Virus record (IMG/VR): IMGVR_UViG_3300009320_000043
Location: 1-41,388 of that record
DNA from: a virus
Length of the DNA: 41,388 nucleotides
Direction: 5' to 3' (one strand)
In this document: positions 13,117 to 41,388 of the stretch, piece by piece
How the letters are laid out: each line of letters opens with the position of its first letter
How positions within the stretch are numbered: position 1 is the stretch's first letter
Notes under the pieces: model-generated
The model's database searches: none
The model's input: only the letters and a program-made list of their open reading frames with translations
Told to the model about the DNA's origin: nothing
Position numbers and translations under genes: made by a program

Positions 13117-14214
13117 ATGCAGCGAGCCTTTTTAGCTGAGGAGAGTGGGATCCCGTTAAGTAAAAAACCAGCACCTCCAATCTCTCGACCTCCCAAGAAT
13201 TATAATCTATTGGTAACCGTGGGGAGATACGATTTTTCAGCAATAGCATGGAACCTCTGCCAAGCGGTCAATAGATATACTCCCGGCTGGAGAGCGCGAA
13301 GCATTGTAGGATTGCCTCATATGTTCCGATGGCCTACTGATCTGATAGCCAACAAGGAGAACAAGGGAGCAATCGAGAGATCACTCAGAGATGCCGACTT
13401 TCTGCTATTCTCCTCCAGTTATTTCTTTTATCGTCCTCTCGATATGAAACTACCTTTAGACATCCCCTGGGGATTATGGCATGGTGGGAGATACTTTCGA
13501 GAAAATCATGATCGCATGATTGAGAAAGTACACCCCTGCTTTGATTTCGTTTTCGCTCACCGGGACCTCTCAGTATTGGGGGAAAAGGTCCATACATTGC
13601 AAGCTCCTTTTGATACCGATAAACATAACTATATCCCGAAGGATTTCTTTGGGAGATTGATTATCGGACACTCTCCCTCAAGGGAACAAGTAAAGGGTAC
13701 AACTGAGTTCATGGCAGCAATCAATCATCTCAAAAAGAAATATGGCGAAGAGGTTATTGAAGTTCTTTTAATCAAGGATCTCTGCTTTAATGAAGCACTC
13801 GCACAAAAGAGGGATATCCATTTATTTTTCGACCAATTCAGTTCTCGATATTTTCCACCGGGAGCAATTCGAGGATATGGTACTTCACTAATCGAGGCTG
13901 CGAGTTATGGGGCAGTATGTCTCAACCATGATTATTTCGAAGATACCCCGGTGATCAAGGTTCACAATAAATCTGATCTGATACGAGAGTTATCCCTTCT
14001 CATAGAAGACAGGGACAGATTAGAGAAGCTTTCACACATACATAGGCGATGGGTTCATTCAGTGCATGGTTATGAGGCCATGGCAGAGTATTTCATGGAT
14101 ATAATCGATGCCGGGGGATATATCAACAGATTAAAGAGATCGATCTCAGCAAATAGGAAGAGACATAACACTAAGATGAACAGAAATATGGTAAGAGGAA
14201 GGCCACGAGTATGA
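13117..14214 (+). CDS. GT-B glycosyltransferase (GT4-like)
   Basis: A 365-residue glycosyltransferase. The N-terminal half (about 28-170) has alternating strands and helices with NLLVTVGRYDFSAIAWNL. The C-terminal donor-binding half begins with GHSPSREQVKGTTEF (184-198), a variant of the GT4 H-x-P..KG signature. It continues to GYGTSLIEAASYGAVCL (253-269), the motif that contacts the nucleotide-sugar. Expected reaction: transfer of a sugar from an activated donor to a glycan or protein acceptor in the cytoplasm. It overlaps the sulfotransferase gene by ATGA. Donor and acceptor cannot be read from sequence. The basic tail after residue 335 may hold a membrane or partner. Confidence 0.75.
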   Translation: MQRAFLAEESGIPLSKKPAPPISRPPKNYNLLVTVGRYDFSAIAWNLCQAVNRYTPGWRARSIVGLPHMFRWPTDLIANKENKGAIERSLRDADFLLFSSSYFFYRPLDMKLPLDIPWGLWHGGRYFRENHDRMIEKVHPCFDFVFAHRDLSVLGEKVHTLQAPFDTDKHNYIPKDFFGRLIIGHSPSREQVKGTTEFMAAINHLKKKYGEEVIEVLLIKDLCFNEALAQKRDIHLFFDQFSSRYFPPGAIRGYGTSLIEAASYGAVCLNHDYFEDTPVIKVHNKSDLIRELSLLIEDRDRLEKLSHIHRRWVHSVHGYEAMAEYFMDIIDAGGYINRLKRSISANRKRHNTKMNRNMVRGRPRV

Positions 14215-14879
14215 GGAAAGATATGGGGAAAAACAATATCGTGATCTGGGGGCATCCCAGGAGTGGGAATATGTTTTTTACTGGACTGATAGGGATGAAC
14301 TTTTATAGTGATCGTGATCTACGGTCTGCCTTTCCTACTCATGATTTCATCGATGAGAAAGGGGAAATATCTGACCGCTTGAAATGGGGGCAATTATTCG
14401 GAGGACATACATTTCGGCCCCCTCTAAATCCTGAACTTATTGGAAGATCGATCTATATCAAAAGGAGTGTTATTGATACAGCTCTTTCACTCTACAACTA
14501 CGTTAAGGATTATCTGCCCGATGCTTGGCAATCGATGAGTTTCAGTGATTTCATAAACCGGCCTATCGGGGGTTTTCGCTATTGGAACCTTAAACCAGTA
14601 TGGAAATTTACTGGACTAGTAAGTACTTATGCTGATTTTACTATTGATCGTTGCATCTTATCTCATCATATGATCTGGGAACAGACCGGAATATACGTAG
14701 TACAATACGAGGACCTGGTGAGAGATGCCGAGGGTGAGTTATTGAAGATATCTCAACATTTCGGACTCCCTCTAAAACCACCGTTCAAGCTCATTGATCG
14801 ATTAATTGGATTTCGCCCGGTGAAAGGACAGATCGGACGAGGTTACGATGCCCTGGAGGAATCTGAAAATGGAGACTAA
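14211..14879 (+). CDS. PAPS-dependent sulfotransferase 1
   Basis: A 222-residue Sulfotransfer_1-type enzyme. The 5'-phosphosulfate loop is GHPRSGN (14-20). The 3'-phosphate motif is the strand-helix IYIKRSVIDTALSLYNYV with Arg85 and Ser93. QYEDLVRDAEGELLKIS and the late KGQIGRGYD match the conserved C-terminal region. It would transfer sulfate from PAPS to a hydroxyl or amine of a glycan. The PAPS source is encoded four genes downstream. It overlaps both neighbours, so it is part of a tightly coupled operon. Confidence 0.85.
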   Translation: MRKDMGKNNIVIWGHPRSGNMFFTGLIGMNFYSDRDLRSAFPTHDFIDEKGEISDRLKWGQLFGGHTFRPPLNPELIGRSIYIKRSVIDTALSLYNYVKDYLPDAWQSMSFSDFINRPIGGFRYWNLKPVWKFTGLVSTYADFTIDRCILSHHMIWEQTGIYVVQYEDLVRDAEGELLKISQHFGLPLKPPFKLIDRLIGFRPVKGQIGRGYDALEESENGD

Positions 14880-15756
14880 ACCTGTATTTATTGGAGGAGT
14901 AGGCCGGTGTGGTACGAACCTGATGAGGATAATATTGGATGCTCATAAAAAGGTATTTTCCCCACCCTTCGAGATCAGAATTTTTATTGATCCTGATGGT
15001 GTACTTGATTTCTATCATACCATTAAACATTCCTGGAACCCTATAAATGCTCAAGTGGCATTTGAAAGGCTGCAGCGGTTGTTAACTCAAACTGAATCAC
15101 TCAGCGATTTCGGCACCCCATATGAGAATTGGCAACTCCGATATATCTTTGATGATTATCGGAAGAAAACTCATAAATTCCTCTCAGAATTATCGGAATT
15201 TATCTTTCCTGGTTATTGGTCAAGGATGGGTCGATCTGGTCATATCCCATATGTGGGACCTGATATCGAGAGAGTGAGGAAAATATGCAGAAAATACATG
15301 CTCAGCCTAATGGGAGAAGCGGAGTTTTATGTCGATGATGGGACATACAACTTATTTTATATCGAGGAGTTCAATGAGATATTACCAGAGGCTAAATTTA
15401 TCTGGTTGACTCGGCGAACTGATCAGATAGTTGGTAGTATGGGTGATGAGTTCTGGTGTCCAACCCATATTAATGATCTTACCATATGGGTGGCTGATTG
15501 TGAATCGGTTTTATCCTCTAGGATTTTTAAATTCCCTCACCTGAAAAATGTGATCATGGTAAAACATGACGACTTGATTAATGATAGAATGAAGGTAATG
15601 CAGGAGGTATGCCTCTTAATTGATCTTGAGCCGGATGAATTGTTTTTTACGAATATTCAGGAGATGGATTTTTCAAAGGCTAATGAATATACTTTCAAGA
15701 GCGATATCGGGGATAAAATAAAGGAATTACTCGAAATAAGGAGAGGTGATCGATGA
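14869..15756 (+). CDS. PAPS-dependent sulfotransferase 2
   Basis: A 295-residue second sulfotransferase, only distantly similar to the first. The N-terminal loop is FIGGVGRCGTNLM (residues 7-19), the Sulfotransfer_3 form of the PAPS-binding motif. KFIWLTRRTDQIVGSMGDEF supplies the 3'-phosphate Arg/Ser pair, and IMVKHDDLINDRMKVMQEV matches the later conserved helix. I start it at ATG 14869, preceded by CTGGAGGA, rather than at 14848. It overlaps the previous gene by 11 bases and the deacetylase by ATGA. Confidence 0.8.
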   Translation: METKPVFIGGVGRCGTNLMRIILDAHKKVFSPPFEIRIFIDPDGVLDFYHTIKHSWNPINAQVAFERLQRLLTQTESLSDFGTPYENWQLRYIFDDYRKKTHKFLSELSEFIFPGYWSRMGRSGHIPYVGPDIERVRKICRKYMLSLMGEAEFYVDDGTYNLFYIEEFNEILPEAKFIWLTRRTDQIVGSMGDEFWCPTHINDLTIWVADCESVLSSRIFKFPHLKNVIMVKHDDLINDRMKVMQEVCLLIDLEPDELFFTNIQEMDFSKANEYTFKSDIGDKIKELLEIRRGDR

Positions 15757-16451
15757 ATGTTCTTTTCGTGGGAGCTCATAATGATGATATAGAGATTCAC
15801 TGCATGGCTACCCTGCTGAAACTGAATGATCTCGGCCATAAGATATATTACCTAGCATTTTGTAGATGTGAGGATCTATCCCGGAATAAGAACCTTATGA
15901 ACGAATGGAAACAGAGCAAGAAAATACTTGATGAACAGGGGGTTGATGTGGCGATACATGACCTTGAAAATAGAAGGTTTCCTGATCAGGCTCAAATGGT
16001 TCGAACTACCTTAGAAGTTTATCGAAACCATATGAAGATTGATCTCGTTTTCTCCCACTCTCCTGATGATATACATCAAGATCATGAGACAGTCGGGAAG
16101 GAGGTGCGCCGGGTATTCAAATATCAATCTATTCTTTTCTATGGAGGACCCCACTCAAATCCAAAATTACAGCATGACTTTTTCATCTCCATAGATTCAG
16201 ATTTACTCAGGAGAAAAATGGAAATATGGTCCCTCTTCAAGAGTCAACATAGATTATTCAATGGAAAGTCTAACTATTTGACTAATCTGTTAATGCACTT
16301 TGGTGCTTTGGCGGGAACGGAGTTTGCGGAGGGATTCAAGATTCACCGGATGGTAGCGAACATATGGTTTACCCCGGAAGTATCACAGATTCAAGAGGAA
16401 ACAGGGCAAGGAGAGGAGAAGAGCGCGAAAGAGGTATATAGAGACCTCTAG
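15753..16451 (+). CDS. PIG-L / LmbE-family deacetylase
   Basis: A 232-residue zinc-dependent de-N-acetylase. The first metal motif AHNDDIEIHCMATL (8-21) is the family's AHPDDE with Asn for Pro. The second, HSPDDIHQDH (102-111), is canonical. His9, Asp12 and His108 or His111 should bind zinc and Asp11 act as base. Family members remove acetyl groups from GlcNAc-containing lipids or glycans. Placed beside two sulfotransferases, it could expose an amine for N-sulfation. The operon seems to end here: the next gene has its own leader. Confidence 0.85.
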   Translation: MNVLFVGAHNDDIEIHCMATLLKLNDLGHKIYYLAFCRCEDLSRNKNLMNEWKQSKKILDEQGVDVAIHDLENRRFPDQAQMVRTTLEVYRNHMKIDLVFSHSPDDIHQDHETVGKEVRRVFKYQSILFYGGPHSNPKLQHDFFISIDSDLLRRKMEIWSLFKSQHRLFNGKSNYLTNLLMHFGALAGTEFAEGFKIHRMVANIWFTPEVSQIQEETGQGEEKSAKEVYRDL

Positions 16452-16502
16452 CACCTCCCGACCCTCTACGGCTCTGCAAATGGTCCATAGGAGGCTACAA
16501 CA

Positions 16503-17351
16503 ATGCGAGGAAAAGTAATATGGTTAACGGGTCTGCCCTGCAGTGGCAAAACGACTCTAGCAAAAGAACTCAAGGGAAGAGAAGAATTTAAGAACGCCGT
16601 TCACCTAGATGGTGATACGATCAGAGGAACTCCGATCTCCAATGATGTAGGATTCTCCCCGGCCGACCGGGCAAAGCATATCATGAGAATCGGATATATC
16701 TCTCGAATTATCGCTGGGGCAGGAGTAGACGTTATATGCTCATTCGTTTCCCCATCGGCTGAGATCAGGGAAAGAGTGAGATCGATGAACCCTACCTTTC
16801 TCGAGATATGGGTCAAGGCAAGTGGTGAGGCCTGCCGAGATAGAGATGTTAAAGGGATGTGGGCCAGGGCAGATAAGGGAGAGATACAGGATTTCACGGG
16901 AGTGGGTGCTCCCTATGATCCCCCTGCCTTTCCCGAGGCGGTCTGTGATACCGATAAGGAGAGTATCGAGGAATCGATTGATATCATCCTCAAGGCACTG
17001 AATTTAAGGTTTGCACGTGCGCTATATATTGGCCGGTGGCAACCCTTCCATGATGGGCATAAATTCATCATAAGCCAATCTCTTGATAAGGGCATCCCGG
17101 TCCTTGTTGCGATCAGGGATATGCTGCACGATGAGGGGAACCCATATCCCACTGATGAGATCAAAGCCATGATAGAAGATCACTATCAGGGAGAGGATGT
17201 TAAAGCGGTGATAATCCCGGATATCCGTTCAGTGAACATCGGCAGGAAAGTGGGATATGAGATCATTGAGATCGAGGCGCCACCTCAGATCAAGGAGATA
17301 TCGGCCACCAAGATAAGAGAGGAAACGAAAAGAGATTGTAAAAGAAGTTAA
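16503..17351 (+). CDS. APS kinase fused to a nucleotidyltransferase domain
   Basis: A 282-residue two-domain enzyme. Residues 3-165 are APS kinase (CysC-type): P-loop GLPCSGKT (10-17), LDGDTIRG, GFSPADRAKHIMRIG, then RDRDVKGMWARADKGEI and FTGVGAPYDPP. This domain phosphorylates adenylyl sulfate to PAPS, the donor for both sulfotransferases. Residues 172-282 are a HIGH-superfamily nucleotidyltransferase with GRWQPFHDGH (177-186) and ISATKIRE (266-273). This looks more like NMN or cytidylyltransferases than ATP sulfurylase, so APS probably comes from the host. The ribosome site is the GGAGGCTAC leader (16490-16498). The activity of the second domain is open. Confidence 0.85.
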   Translation: MRGKVIWLTGLPCSGKTTLAKELKGREEFKNAVHLDGDTIRGTPISNDVGFSPADRAKHIMRIGYISRIIAGAGVDVICSFVSPSAEIRERVRSMNPTFLEIWVKASGEACRDRDVKGMWARADKGEIQDFTGVGAPYDPPAFPEAVCDTDKESIEESIDIILKALNLRFARALYIGRWQPFHDGHKFIISQSLDKGIPVLVAIRDMLHDEGNPYPTDEIKAMIEDHYQGEDVKAVIIPDIRSVNIGRKVGYEIIEIEAPPQIKEISATKIREETKRDCKRS

Positions 17352-17375: not shown

Positions 17376-17397
17376 AAGAGGGGGCGATCCCCCTCTT
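17376..17397. terminator. Bidirectional hairpin between convergent genes
   Basis: AAGAGGGGG (17376-17384) pairs perfectly with CCCCCTCTT (17389-17397) around CGAT. It separates the rightward APS-kinase gene from the leftward operon, whose last stop codon overlaps the hairpin's right arm. Confidence 0.75.
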
Positions 17398-18013
17398 ATT
17401 CTTGGGCTAGAGATATATGTTTTCCCTTCTCCCAAATCTCGCGGGCTTTCTTGAAAGTTGGAATCTCTGCCATACTCTCATACCCTTCCTGCTTGTATGC
17501 CCTGACAAAAAATCGGACATATTGCTGATTTTCCGGTTGGCTCATGGTGGTTTTCCACCAATCGTTGATATCCTTTTGCTGCTTGGCGCTCACTGGCTTT
17601 TTGGGAGGCTTCTCTTTCTCTTTCTTCTCAGCCTCTGAGATTGCCAATGCTCCCTCGGGATCAGTATCTTTCATGCTGGAGAGTTCGTCCTTTTCATTGG
17701 GCTGATCATTGATAACCCTCTCGACGACGCGCTCCTCTCCTGATGTTCCCCTGACTCTTTTCTTATGAGTAGTATAGATCCTGCTCTCATAAGGTCCGAT
17801 GTTCTTTGTTTCGATATCGGGATGGTGCTTCCGCACATCCATCTCGACCCGTTTTACATAGGCGGTCAGGTATGATCTTGCTGACTCCATGCTCTCATAT
17901 AGTGAGTCATGTTCCCCCAGGGTTGCCGTGAGTCCCACGTCAATCCTTTCGCTCTCGAAGCTTCCCAGGTTGATGGTTCGGGAAACTGATACGGATATTT
18001 CTTTCGGTTCCAT
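17396..18013 (-). CDS. Hypothetical protein, NLG-FES type N-terminus
   Basis: A 205-residue protein. The N-terminal 60 residues (ISVSVSRTINLGSFESERID, then VGLTATL and a helix) form a beta-alpha pattern often seen in small phage and archaeal-virus proteins of unknown role. A charged linker rich in Lys, Glu and Pro follows (about 110-145), then a helical C-terminal part (QQKDINDWWKTTMSQPENQQ). It is the last gene of the leftward 20.8-17.4 kb unit, starting in the stop of the gene before it. A DNA-binding or recombination accessory role is possible but not shown. Confidence 0.6.
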   Translation of the reverse strand: MEPKEISVSVSRTINLGSFESERIDVGLTATLGEHDSLYESMESARSYLTAYVKRVEMDVRKHHPDIETKNIGPYESRIYTTHKKRVRGTSGEERVVERVINDQPNEKDELSSMKDTDPEGALAISEAEKKEKEKPPKKPVSAKQQKDINDWWKTTMSQPENQQYVRFFVRAYKQEGYESMAEIPTFKKAREIWEKGKHISLAQE

Positions 18014-25255: not shown

Positions 25256-25444
25256 TTACTCCTTCTCATTTTGGATATGTGATATAACTTTCAGTGATAC
25301 ACATCCTCTAACTCCGGTTATCCAAGCGACTCCTCCACAACTCGGAATAGTTCCAATATCCTTAATTATATGATCAGTGGATGTTATGGGTCCTCCTATA
25401 ATACTGTGATAATTTACTTTATCACCTTTGCGGAAAACCGTCAT
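25256..25444 (-). CDS. Small hypothetical protein between ParB and MCM
   Basis: A 62-residue beta-rich protein (VFRKGDKVNYHSIIGGPI, VAWITGVRGCVSLKVISHI), similar in outline to SH3-like or KOW-type small barrels. It starts in the ParB stop codon (ATGA) and ends beside the poorly defined MCM start. Confidence 0.55.
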   Translation of the reverse strand: MTVFRKGDKVNYHSIIGGPITSTDHIIKDIGTIPSCGGVAWITGVRGCVSLKVISHIQNEKE

Positions 25445-27132
25445 TTCTTTCCCCCCTTCTTGGTCGTCTTCTTTGTGGTGATCTTCCTTTTCTTGCTCCT
25501 CTCGATCTGCTTGAGTTTTCTCTGGGCTAACCGCTCGAGTTCAGCCTCTTTCTGCTGCTTCTTGATCGTATTAAGAAATGTCTTTTTCTTGACTGCTCTC
25601 TTCTCGTTCCTGATCCTCTTCACCTCGTCGGCCTTCTCGGTATAATACTTCATGGCAGAAGGTACTACACGCTCCAGGTCCTCCCCTAGAATGAATCGCC
25701 GATCCTTCCGCTCTCGGTCATTCCCCATGATCTCAAAGTGCCAGATCAGGCTAATGAGAATCTTTTCGATCTTGTCCTCCGGGAGCTTCTTTCCTTTGTG
25801 TGAACCTCCCCAACGAGGAGGGAAGTATTTTGCCGATTCCCCAAAAGGTTTATAGGCGAATTGCTCCGCGTAACGATCTCCAGGAGCTCCATATCTCGTT
25901 ATCGTTTCAAGGATCGATCTCATGAGGTCAAGAGGAACTACAACCGCTTTTCTTTTCTTCCCCCGGGGCGGTTTAAAATCAGTTCTCGGCAGCTCGAAAT
26001 CATCAATTGCCTTGTAAAGCGCCTCTCGAGCTACAGGGTACAATTTCTTCATGAGGATTGTTTCGCTTCTCTTTTGTCCGATCTCTTTGTTGTGATAGCA
26101 TTCGGAATCAGAACAATATTCCCCTGCCTTCCCTTTGAATTTCAGTTTTTTCGGGCATCCGGTACAGATATATCCTTCGAATTTCTCACCGATCTTCTTA
26201 TGCCTCCAGGAATCGAATTTCACTCGAGCGGTTTTCACCTTGGTGCTGATCTGTGCTGCCTTTCTCTCCTCTACCTTCTCTTTCTCTTCGATTTTCTCCC
26301 TTTCCTTCAATTTCTTCTTGGCAGCCACCTTCTTGGGAATGAAGCATTTGGGATCCAGGCAAAATGTATTTTTCTCTTTACCCCATCTTCTACCCACTTC
26401 GCAGTTTTTCTTACATTTCTTACAGGGCTTTTTATTGAAATAAAACCACCATCTTTCCGACCAATAATCTCCTCGATTCATGGTAAGATCGAGGACTTTT
26501 TTCTTATTTGCTCCTCTTATGGATAAATCGATTACCCCCTGGGTTTTATCCATCGTCGGCGCTCCATATTCCTGGATGTGCTCCTTGATACCGTCCATGA
26601 TATCCTTGAAGACGGGATACTTCTCGAATGAGAGAACGGCGAGAGCCTGTTTGGTCATTATTTTCCGGGAAATAATTAGTTCCTTTAACTTCGCCGGCGC
26701 CTTTAAAAGTCGAAGGCGGTTCGCAATCCATCCCTGAGTCTTGCCCAAGCGATCAGCGAGCTCCTGCTGTGTTCCTTTCTTATCTTTGAGCAGGATCTCC
26801 AAACAAGCTGCCTCTTCCATCGGTGCGAGGTCCTCCCGCTGCAGGTTCTCAATGATCATTACTTCTCGGACCTGCTGATCATCCATCTCCTTGATCATGC
26901 AAGGTGCTGAGGTAAGCCCGGCCATCTGAGAAGCCCGGTATCTCCTCTCTCCGCACACCAGTTGGTATCTCTCGGCGTTCGGGCGGACGATGATAGGTTC
27001 TAGTATCCCTTGAGCCTTGATGCTCTTAGAGAGGTCCTGGAGGGCTTGCTCATCGAAGTTCTTTCGGGGATTCCATCCGGTGAGATAGATATCCTCGATC
27101 TTGATCATCTTAATTGAGTCCCGGTACCTCAT
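25441..27132 (-). CDS. parB: ParB/Spo0J-type partition protein with zinc-binding C-terminal half
   Basis: A 563-residue protein, about twice the length of chromosomal ParB. Residues 8-105 are the ParB/CTPase fold with GERRYRA (61-67) and ENLQRED (95-101). Residues 119-145 are the helix-turn-helix (TQQELADRLGKTQGWIANRL). The C-terminal half adds two cysteine clusters (CKKCKKNC, CTGCPKKL and CSDSEC) and lysine-rich coiled segments. ParB proteins bind palindromic parS sites and spread by CTP clamping. No ParA is visible, so it may act in replication, silencing or transcription. AAGGTGATT precedes the ATG. Confidence 0.85.
   Translation of the reverse strand: MRYRDSIKMIKIEDIYLTGWNPRKNFDEQALQDLSKSIKAQGILEPIIVRPNAERYQLVCGERRYRASQMAGLTSAPCMIKEMDDQQVREVMIIENLQREDLAPMEEAACLEILLKDKKGTQQELADRLGKTQGWIANRLRLLKAPAKLKELIISRKIMTKQALAVLSFEKYPVFKDIMDGIKEHIQEYGAPTMDKTQGVIDLSIRGANKKKVLDLTMNRGDYWSERWWFYFNKKPCKKCKKNCEVGRRWGKEKNTFCLDPKCFIPKKVAAKKKLKEREKIEEKEKVEERKAAQISTKVKTARVKFDSWRHKKIGEKFEGYICTGCPKKLKFKGKAGEYCSDSECYHNKEIGQKRSETILMKKLYPVAREALYKAIDDFELPRTDFKPPRGKKRKAVVVPLDLMRSILETITRYGAPGDRYAEQFAYKPFGESAKYFPPRWGGSHKGKKLPEDKIEKILISLIWHFEIMGNDRERKDRRFILGEDLERVVPSAMKYYTEKADEVKRIRNEKRAVKKKTFLNTIKKQQKEAELERLAQRKLKQIERSKKRKITTKKTTKKGGKK
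26659..26674 (-). repeat. 16-bp near-palindrome, variant copy inside parB
   Basis: TATTTTC-CG-GGAAATA on the plus strand, one mismatch from the consensus arm. It lies inside the parB coding region; self-location is common for parS-like sites but this copy could be chance. Confidence 0.35.
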
Positions 27133-29468: not shown

Positions 29469-29648
29469 ATGGTCGAGCCGATCCCAAACCCTCCTCCTGA
29501 TCTTTCCGGTGAGAAATGTACCAACTGCAACACCATCGGAAAACTCTCATATATCTGGATTAGGGGAAGATTCCCGGCATTAATTCAGTGTGGTGAATGT
29601 GGTTATAAGATCGATACATCGGACCATTTTAAGGATGGATATCCATGA
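29469..29648 (+). CDS. Small zinc-ribbon protein
   Basis: A 59-residue protein with CTNC and CGEC, a simple zinc ribbon. The ATG at 29469 is used because the GTG at 29460 would sit on the upstream stop with weaker context. It overlaps the next gene by ATGA. Confidence 0.55.
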   Translation: MVEPIPNPPPDLSGEKCTNCNTIGKLSYIWIRGRFPALIQCGECGYKIDTSDHFKDGYP

Positions 29649-30367
29649 GTAAGGAACCGCTTGAGATCATATACATGAGCATCGATGATCTGCATGATTG
29701 GGACGATAATCCCAAGCTGCATAATGAGGAATTGCTGCTCAAGAGCATTGAACGGTTTGGCATCCGTCAAGCCATTCTAGTACAGAAATCCACCAAGAAG
29801 ATCATTGCCGGCCATGGTCGAAAGAAAGCCTTTCGAGAGAAGGGATATACCAAGGTCCCCGTTATGCTGTGGGATTGCACAGATGAGGAGGCTACTACCT
29901 ATGCTATCGCAGACAACCAACTGACTATATCCGGGGGGTGGGATCAGGGGCTCCTCCTTGATTCTCTTCGGTTGATCAATGATGTGGAGATGTTGGATTT
30001 TGCCGGATTCGATGAGGAGGAACTTGAAAACCTGATAAAGCTGGAAGATATGGATTTCGTTGACCCTTATGCTAATGATGAGATCCTACCACCAAAAGAA
30101 AAACCACCTTCCTATTTAACGACCGAGTTCACCTATTTCTATATTCGGCTAATCAAGAAGTTGAAAAGAACCAACATATATGCCGTGATCAATAGAAACT
30201 CCGGCGAAGAACTCGGTCGCATAAAATGGTATGGACATTGGAGATCATATTGCTTTTTCCCCGAAGCCGAAACCATATTTAATAGTAACTGCATGGTAGA
30301 TCTTATTGATTTCATGAACGATCTAATGGAAAAGAGGAAGAGCAAGAATGACAACCGAAAATCCTGA
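29645..30367 (+). CDS. ParB-fold (ParB-N/sulfiredoxin-like) protein
   Basis: A 240-residue protein. Residues 7-90 have the phage ParB-N pattern: SIDDLHDWDDNPKLHNEELL, LLKSIERFGIRQAILV, KIIAGHGRKKAFREKGYTKV and YAIADNQL. It lacks the classical GERR-x-R box, having GHGRKKA instead, and no helix-turn-helix follows. Such proteins often accompany phage DNA methyltransferases or nucleases. The C-terminal 110 residues are not recognised. It is the second ParB-fold protein in the genome and is not closely related to the first. Confidence 0.7.
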   Translation: MSKEPLEIIYMSIDDLHDWDDNPKLHNEELLLKSIERFGIRQAILVQKSTKKIIAGHGRKKAFREKGYTKVPVMLWDCTDEEATTYAIADNQLTISGGWDQGLLLDSLRLINDVEMLDFAGFDEEELENLIKLEDMDFVDPYANDEILPPKEKPPSYLTTEFTYFYIRLIKKLKRTNIYAVINRNSGEELGRIKWYGHWRSYCFFPEAETIFNSNCMVDLIDFMNDLMEKRKSKNDNRKS

Positions 30368-41117: not shown

Positions 41118-41388
41118 ATGACGCAACCAAACGCACCGGGAGTAGACTCCCAAATGAATACCCAGGCATTGTCCGGCCTTCACTACCCCTCCCTCAGCAA
41201 GAGGATAGTGGAGACCCCTCTCGACGGATATGACTGGAGGAGCCTCTGTGATTTCTGGCCATCGTATGAAAATCCCAGGGTCGTTCTGCCTATCGAGGAA
41301 GGTTCTCATACCGCGGTAGCCAAGAGGCTTGGCGAAGGTGAGGAAATCCCCCTCATGTACGCTCCCGTCGCAGGGAAAGAAGTGAAAG
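41118..41388 (+). CDS. Major capsid protein (5' part; continues at position 1)
   Basis: The first 90 residues of the capsid protein (MTQPNAPGVDSQMNTQ ...), open to the end of the window. The frame continues in phase from 41269 into base 1, giving 948 bases including the stop. AAGGAGGA precedes the ATG at good spacing. The N-terminal 40 residues are polar and may form the N-arm of the HK97 fold. Confidence 0.85.
   Translation, partial: MTQPNAPGVDSQMNTQALSGLHYPSLSKRIVETPLDGYDWRSLCDFWPSYENPRVVLPIEEGSHTAVAKRLGEGEEIPLMYAPVAGKEVK
41270..41388. repeat. Terminal direct repeat, right copy
   Basis: Identical to bases 1-119; shows that the sequence closes on itself. Genome length without the overlap is 41,269 bp. 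Confidence 0.95.

Follow-up and report, generated by a model that had tools for sequence, protein, structure and literature searches.

The window, meaning the whole 41,388 nt stretch of DNA analysed here, appears to be the complete genome (41 kb) of a tailed virus of archaeal type, with direct terminal repeats at its left (1–119) and right (41270–41388) ends. Archaea are probably the host domain. Five ORFs run in the same direction on the + strand between 13117 and 17351 (13117–14214, 14211–14879, 14848–15756, 15753–16451 and 16503–17351), exactly where the initial annotation had placed five adjacent genes. Successive overlaps of 4, 32 and 4 nt join the first four, a gap of 51 nt separates the fourth from the fifth, and the next gene downstream (17396–18013) lies on the opposite strand. 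The fibres said to be encoded just upstream were not confirmed, as family searches with the upstream ORFs (Pfam, PHROG) gave no match above noise.

The first ORF (13117–14214, 365 aa) encodes a putative glycosyltransferase with a GT-B/GT4-like C-terminal half. Residues 172–329 share 25% identity with a 'glycosyltransferase family 1 protein' (E = 0.02) and a PHROG glycosyltransferase was matched at E = 0.019, whereas Pfam and PDB searches returned nothing; the original GT-B call thus stands as a weak assignment. Of the two PAPS sulfotransferases that had been proposed, sulfotransferase 2 (14848–15756, 302 aa) is firmly assigned by its sequence to Sulfotransfer_3 (PF13469; 8.5e-16, 59.3 bits vs a cut-off of 27), and 5′-PSB-like (GGVGRCGTNLM) and 3′-PB-like (RRTDQIVGS) motifs are visible by eye. 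Sulfotransferase 1 (14211–14879, 222 aa) is a candidate that falls just below both Pfam cut-offs (Sulfotransfer_3: 9.5e-5, 23.2 bits vs 27; Sulfotransfer_1: 1.8e-4, 21.4 bits vs 22). It has PAPS-binding-like motifs by eye (HPRSGNMF and KRSVIDTALSLY) and a PDB search gave no match. The fourth ORF (15753–16451, 232 aa) is firmly predicted to be a PIG-L/LmbE-type de-N-acetylase, as first annotated. It matches PF02585 well above cut-off (4.9e-13, 50.1 bits vs 28.2), and its alignment to the LmbE-related structure 2ixd (2.7e-5) spans both metal-binding motifs, in which the ligands are intact (AHNDD and HQDH; family AHxDD and HxDH). Single-protein scans of viral contigs found no relatives of the deacetylase, sulfotransferase 2 or the glycosyltransferase.

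The fifth ORF (16503–17351, 282 aa) encodes an APS kinase (aa 2–166) followed by a compact C-terminal HxGH nucleotidyltransferase domain, hereafter NT (aa 172–275). The APS kinase domain (16506–16946) scores above cut-off against both PF01583 (APS_kinase; 6.2e-41) and TIGR00455 (apsK; 149.9 bits vs an equivalog cut-off of 138.7) and matches PDB APS kinases at 1e-37. Its motifs comprise the P-loop GLPCSGKTT, DGDTIR and RDVKGMWARADKGEIQDFTG; together with the equivalog score, the P-loop, DGDxxR and KGxxxxAxxGExxxFTG region place it within CysC. The AF2 model is confident (pLDDT 91) and has the APS kinase fold (Foldseek 5cb6, E 1e-15, TMt 0.89). Sequence and modelled fold therefore agree in firmly predicting a canonical APS kinase, in line with the initial annotation. 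The fusion as a whole gave a confident two-domain AF2 model. The second domain had been overlooked in that annotation.

NT (17016–17327, + strand) is supported by NMNAT-like NCBIfam profiles (5e-9), 27 homologues and an AF2 model (pLDDT 88–91). Its motifs occur in the order GRWQPFHDGH ... GRKVGY ... ISATKIR, and among the residues invariant in the alignment of 27 homologues are GRxVGY and the arginines of the HxGH and GRxVGY motifs. By both sequence and fold the nearest relatives of NT are NMN adenylyltransferases (NMNAT) and phosphopantetheine adenylyltransferases (PPAT), not Sat; it has the HxGH and ISxTxR motifs and the fold of an NMN adenylyltransferase. The best PDB relatives are of the archaeal MJ0541 (1f9a)/NadM type, with which NT shares GRxQPFHxGH and ISxTxIR. 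However, all aligned NT homologues are without the segment that binds NMN and lies between strand 4 and ISxTxR: profile positions 80–87 do not align to MJ0541, and the invariant GRxVGY occupies the place of this segment. NT also differs from MJ0541/NadM in being fused to or adjoining APS-kinase-like proteins. Of the ordered Sat motifs QxRNPxHRxH, GRDHAG and ISGTxLR, the last was matched in 4/13 proteins; possible NT counterparts (GRWQPFHDGH, GR[DGK]VGY, ISATKIR) follow that order at shorter spacing. No match to PF01747 (Sat) was found at 0.1, comparison of the NT and Sat profiles gave E 0.047 with an alignment confined to the HxGH segment, and no Sat fold appeared among the best 50 fold matches listed. 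NT was therefore rejected as a cut-down member of the Sat family.

NT is encoded by at least 591 viral stretches, commonly adjoining or fused to APS-kinase-like genes. In a first viral sample, 64/81 had such a kinase-like partner and 64/81 a sulfotransferase within 4 kb (16/20 for each after dereplication at 90%). In a second sample the kinase was present in 51/80 and a sulfotransferase in 22/80, with sulfotransferase-like motifs in five more (about 27/80); this count is a lower bound because strict detection missed divergent sulfotransferases such as that of phage DLP_6. Glycan genes neighbour NT at loci of the second sample that have no sulfotransferase. The viral partners of NT are mostly short, divergent APS-kinase relatives (128–160 aa) lacking the RDPKGLYKKAR...FTG region. 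Some phages carry the kinase-NT fusion with no detectable sulfotransferase, in one case adjoining a NADAR-domain gene, and DLP_6 carries its own genes for a nicotinamide phosphoribosyltransferase and for NMNAT/Nudix-like proteins. In viruses related to ours through the terminase (L083–L085, partial records), a search that had no positive control found no match to the fusion, so that the sulfation island looks accessory.

Beyond the many aquatic and archaeal viruses, NT is found in SAR11, marine Marinimicrobia and one haloarchaeon. In the haloarchaeon (L106) a sulfotransferase is followed by an APS kinase-NT fusion, in the same order as here. In Parcubacteria (L101, L104) the two domains are fused in the opposite order, NT-APS kinase, with a sulfotransferase-like gene nearby in L101, and in a marine bacterium (L105) a full APS kinase (236 bits) abuts NT. 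Class-wide sampling of Alphaproteobacteria added two further kinase-NT fusions (L181 and L182) and was uninformative on co-occurrence, since few members have NT. Among 40 NT-bearing cellular genomes, 33 had a sulfotransferase, one had Sat and none had CysD over cut-off. A separate NadD was present in 30 of the 40, a further difference from MJ0541/NadM, so that NAD synthesis there does not require NT. On this ground NT was judged unlikely to serve as the cellular NMNAT. In the G022 phylum (149 genomes), a known ATP sulfurylase accompanied sulfotransferases in 1/8 genomes with NT vs 65/89 without (p = 0.001, uncorrected for phylogeny). This signal is confounded, because the NT-bearing genomes are, with one exception, small (0.7–1.0 Mb) and several equally small relatives with sulfotransferases lack NT as well as Sat/CysD. 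SAR11 genomes, which carry sulfotransferases, are without sat and cysDN (PMC5069961). They also have AprBA, which is able to make APS out of sulfite (PMC5069961); NT is therefore not necessarily the sole source of APS in SAR11.

With a canonical APS kinase alongside two PAPS-type sulfotransferases, PAPS would very probably be both made and used by the products of this operon. The initial annotation had held that donor synthesis and use were both present, which these genes support; it fell short on completeness, since an APS kinase by itself cannot start from sulfate. The fused NT may therefore supply the missing step. We consider it probable that the operon encodes a viral sulfation pathway in which a compact PAPS synthase (NT plus APS kinase) feeds the two sulfotransferases. 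NT would convert ATP and sulfate to APS, and 3′-phosphorylation of APS by the kinase would yield PAPS, a step known for the family and for which sequence and fold give strong support. With PAPS as donor, the sulfotransferases would then sulfate an acceptor on its hydroxyl or amino groups. The glycosyltransferase and the PIG-L enzyme would build or trim this acceptor, which is most likely a glycan on the virion or the surface of the host. Such sulfation might exclude competing viruses, shield the virion or improve its binding, or free the virus from dependence on a low-PAPS host. By a narrow balance, we also favour reading NT as a hitherto unrecognised ATP sulfurylase, a third type that would have arisen from the NMNAT/PPAT branch independently of Sat and CysDN and that would form, with the APS kinase, the smallest known PAPS synthase.

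The kinase could instead use host-made APS, with NT transferring an adenylyl or cytidylyl group to a cofactor or sugar precursor in the manner of NMNAT or CoaD, and sulfation of the acceptor unchanged. The closeness of NT to NMNAT and PPAT in profile and fold points this way, as do the phage kinase-NT pairs with no sulfotransferase nearby and the one beside a NADAR-domain gene. It nevertheless seems rather unlikely, given that GRxVGY replaces the NMN-binding segment, that most NT genomes have their own NadD and DLP_6 its own NMN-related genes, that fusions with full APS kinases occur with NT at either end, and that NT co-occurs with sulfotransferases in genomes lacking Sat and CysD. One APS-kinase relative is known to make a different 3′-phosphonucleotide donor, in Campylobacter phosphoramidate synthesis. 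A non-PAPS 3′-phosphonucleotide product of the kinase-NT pair would suit the short, divergent putative kinases that partner most viral NTs, but is very improbable here, where the kinase is canonical, above the apsK equivalog cut-off and beside PAPS-type sulfotransferases.

The nature of the acceptor bears on two other readings. A glycan acceptor, as originally proposed, was not supported: among PDB entries, human and other tyrosylprotein sulfotransferases (TPSTs; aligned segment FIGGVGRCGTNLMRIILDAHKKV) come nearest to the PAPS-binding stretch of sulfotransferase 2. Sulfotransferase 2 might thus modify tyrosine residues on proteins of the virion or the host surface. With an E of about 0.02 the match is weak, however, and it covers the cofactor site only; the operon also encodes a PIG-L deacetylase and a possible glycosyltransferase, and glycan genes recur near NT in other viruses. 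We regard a protein acceptor as unlikely. Less likely again is the heparan-sulfate-like scheme of the initial annotation, an NDST analogue built from unrelated parts in which PIG-L would remove the acetyl group from GlcNAc and a sulfotransferase would N-sulfate the sugar. The PIG-L gene, whose product has intact metal ligands, does come after that of sulfotransferase 2 and before that of the PAPS enzyme. Yet the pairing is not conserved, as none of the other NT loci examined had a PIG-L-like gene beside the PAPS enzyme; members of the PIG-L family take many substrates (mycothiol, bacillithiol, GPI), and nothing favoured N- over O-sulfation.

Like animal PAPS synthetase (PAPSS1/2), the fifth gene product is a single chain in which an APS kinase, homologous between the two, precedes an HxGH adenylyltransferase-type domain; microbial Sat-APS kinase fusions likewise join the two in one chain. 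In the human enzyme the HNGH motif is required, and R421 and R522 adjoin the docked sulfate (PMC11697783); NT for its part has invariant arginines in HxGH and GRxVGY. In contrast to these fusions, NT is about 110 aa rather than about 390, belongs to the NMNAT/PPAT branch, is without PF01747 and aligns to Sat solely around the HxGH motif. The C. jejuni HS:19 cluster (cysD-cysN-permease-cysC-sulfotransferase-glycosyltransferase), whose function is only proposed, similarly groups donor synthesis with a sulfotransferase and a glycosyltransferase, but is bacterial and obtains APS via CysDN (PMC8743553). Two different sulfotransferases also sulfate the N-glycan of Halobacterium salinarum; there they are host-encoded and act on surface glycans with no viral operon, and donor synthesis is outside that paper (PMC11980604). 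APS kinases and sulfotransferases in phages are as such already known, and have been seen singly: an APS kinase in Ralstonia phage RSL1, and Sulfotransfer_3 in OM43 phages and cyanophages, where its function was termed unclear (PMC10580990). Our literature search found no description of phage sulfotransferases linked to a kinase-NT PAPS module, nor of any viral PAPS-sulfotransferase system; in the papers searched there was no archaeal-virus counterpart, in keeping with the earlier statement that no such system is known to have been described.

If the proposed pathway is correct, viruses have their own means of turning sulfate into sulfated surface molecules, and sulfate activation gains an additional, independent origin. 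NT would fill a gap in organisms without sat or cysDN, such as SAR11, feeding their sulfotransferases. Moreover, a function would be given to a gene pair conserved in at least 591 viral stretches, and the role of phage sulfotransferases (PMC10580990) would become directly assayable by an enzyme test.

The five genes of the operon (13117-17351, + strand) lie exactly where the initial annotation had placed them, with operon-like overlaps and the next gene on the opposite strand. Sulfotransferase 2 and the PIG-L deacetylase passed the curated Pfam cut-offs, sulfotransferase 1 scored slightly under its cut-off, and the PIG-L protein retains both metal-binding motifs in an alignment with the LmbE-type structure 2ixd. 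That the first gene encodes a glycosyltransferase is only suggested, by a PHROG match (E 0.019) and by the 25% identity that its second half shares with a family 1 glycosyltransferase (E 0.02). The last gene (16503-17351) was correctly called an APS kinase, being over the NCBI equivalog cut-off and APS-kinase-like in fold, but a second domain (aa 172-275) had been overlooked.

This domain, a compact HxGH nucleotidyltransferase (NT), was placed by Pfam and NCBIfam near the cytidylyltransferase/NMN adenylyltransferase superfamily and carries the motifs GRWQPFHDGH, GRKVGY and ISATKIR. Residues invariant across the family are G, R, Q, P, H, G, H in the first motif, a central N-P, GRxVG(Y), and, within the last motif, S, T and R. 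AlphaFold2 models were of high confidence both within the fusion and for NT alone. The NT profile aligned with the archaeal NMN adenylyltransferase MJ0541 on both flanks of GRxVGY and not across it; the family, judging from its sequences, no longer has the NMN-binding segment present in its relatives.

The window genome looks complete, since it has a direct terminal repeat of 119 bp. Gene content makes it very probably that of a tailed virus of an archaeon, because it encodes a large terminase, portal and head protein, and an MCM helicase that, among isolate viruses, matches almost exclusively those of archaea (haloarchaeal tailed viruses, Methanocaldococcus fervens tailed virus 1 and an Altiarchaeum virus). 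Separate ORFs at opposite ends of this terminally repeated genome (86-796 and 38983-40554) each weakly match major head protein families. There are also two ParB-like genes (25441-27132, -; 29645-30367, +), the second of which matches a DNA methyltransferase family too.

A profile scan of viral contigs gave at least 591 confirmed stretches with NT. Of the 81 loci in a first sample, most had NT as a standalone gene of about 115 aa; 64 had an APS-kinase-like gene fused to NT or directly upstream, and 64 had a sulfotransferase within 4 kb (16/20 for each after collapsing at 90% identity). In a second sample of 80 loci, with NT nearer to that of the window, the kinase was adjacent or fused in 51 and a sulfotransferase lay within 4 kb in 22, with sulfotransferase-like motifs in five more. 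Neighbours at the other loci were deformylases, DNA methylases, glycosyltransferases, sugar epimerases and two Sulfotransfer_2 genes. From these counts, the kinase linkage is general, and that to sulfotransferases, though common, is not universal. In Stenotrophomonas phage Bhz60 a small kinase-NT fusion (L195:15056-16882) lies between NADAR-domain and DNA methyltransferase genes, with no sulfotransferase detected in the 50 kb examined of the 56.6-kb genome; this setting may point to a second role of the pair. In phage DLP_6, a Sulfotransfer_2 gene lies in another part of the genome. In viral contigs L002 (9887-10876) and L220 (5045-5992), a canonical APS kinase has an extra C-terminal domain (HAD-like by eye in L002) and is directly followed by NT, in a cluster with sugar-nucleotide genes.

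Scanning GTDB genomes gave 547 confirmed stretches, of which the 80 kept were mostly SAR11, then Marinimicrobia, Parcubacteria and one haloarchaeon, Halocatena pleomorpha, where a sulfotransferase precedes an APS kinase-NT fusion as in the window. Two Parcubacteria have the reverse fusion, NT-APS kinase (L101:4909-5763 and L104:768-1610), and that both orders of fusion occur is good evidence that the two act in a shared pathway. In L101, some 1.6 kb upstream, there is a sulfotransferase-like gene. In SAR11 (L112:9487-10342, L108, L120, L172) a small APS-kinase-like gene overlaps NT; in L112 the pair adjoins methylenetetrahydrofolate-reductase-like and GcvT/DMSP-demethylase-like genes.

APS kinase uses only APS. 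Because sulfotransferase genomes without a known ATP sulfurylase carry the fusion, the simplest reading is that the joined NT would first form APS. Searches of 40 NT-bearing genomes found Sat in one, CysD over the cut-off in none and a Sulfotransfer_3 gene in 33. In 149 genomes of the phylum of G022, Sat or CysD occurred in 1/8 of the sulfotransferase-bearing genomes with NT vs 65/89 of those without (Fisher p = 0.0013, phylogeny ignored). Genome size confounds this comparison: the NT-bearing genomes are small with one exception, and equally small relatives (G209, G237, G265, G313) have sulfotransferases without Sat, CysD or NT. Either these four are incomplete or they have another PAPS source again. 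In Sat, the HxxH and ISGTxLR motifs flank GRDHAG, whose GRD arginine is R522 in human PAPS synthase. In that enzyme, R421 and R522 adjoin the docked sulfate (PMC11697783). Motif order is the same in NT, but this likeness is suggestive and no more, since the homology of NT to Sat goes no further than the superfamily. Pelagibacter lacks sat and cysDNCHIJ and has AprBA, which can make APS out of sulfite; cysC and sat are given as absent from Ca. P. ubique (PMC5069961). We put the chance that NT is an ATP sulfurylase at about even. Some form of PAPS-fed sulfation pathway is considerably likelier, and predicted with good confidence, because it needs only the kinase and sulfotransferases.

Judging by the adjacent PIG-L and possible glycosyltransferase genes, the putative acceptor is a glycan; in its cofactor stretch, sulfotransferase 2 is similar to tyrosylprotein sulfotransferases (E about 0.02). 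The heparan-like N-sulfation proposed initially remains a guess, because none of the other NT loci examined has a PIG-L-like gene.

Cellular clusters uniting CysDN, CysC, sulfotransferase and glycosyltransferase have been described (PMC8743553), as has the use of two sulfotransferases to sulfate archaeal surfaces (PMC11980604). Phage sulfotransferases are known singly, their function called unclear (PMC10580990), and Ralstonia phage RSL1 has an APS kinase. The literature searched contained no description of the compact APS kinase-NT protein or, in agreement with the initial annotation, of any such operon in a virus. There is a real chance that NT is a new kind of enzyme. While phage APS kinases and sulfotransferases are known singly, the fused protein and the viral operon appear to be undescribed.
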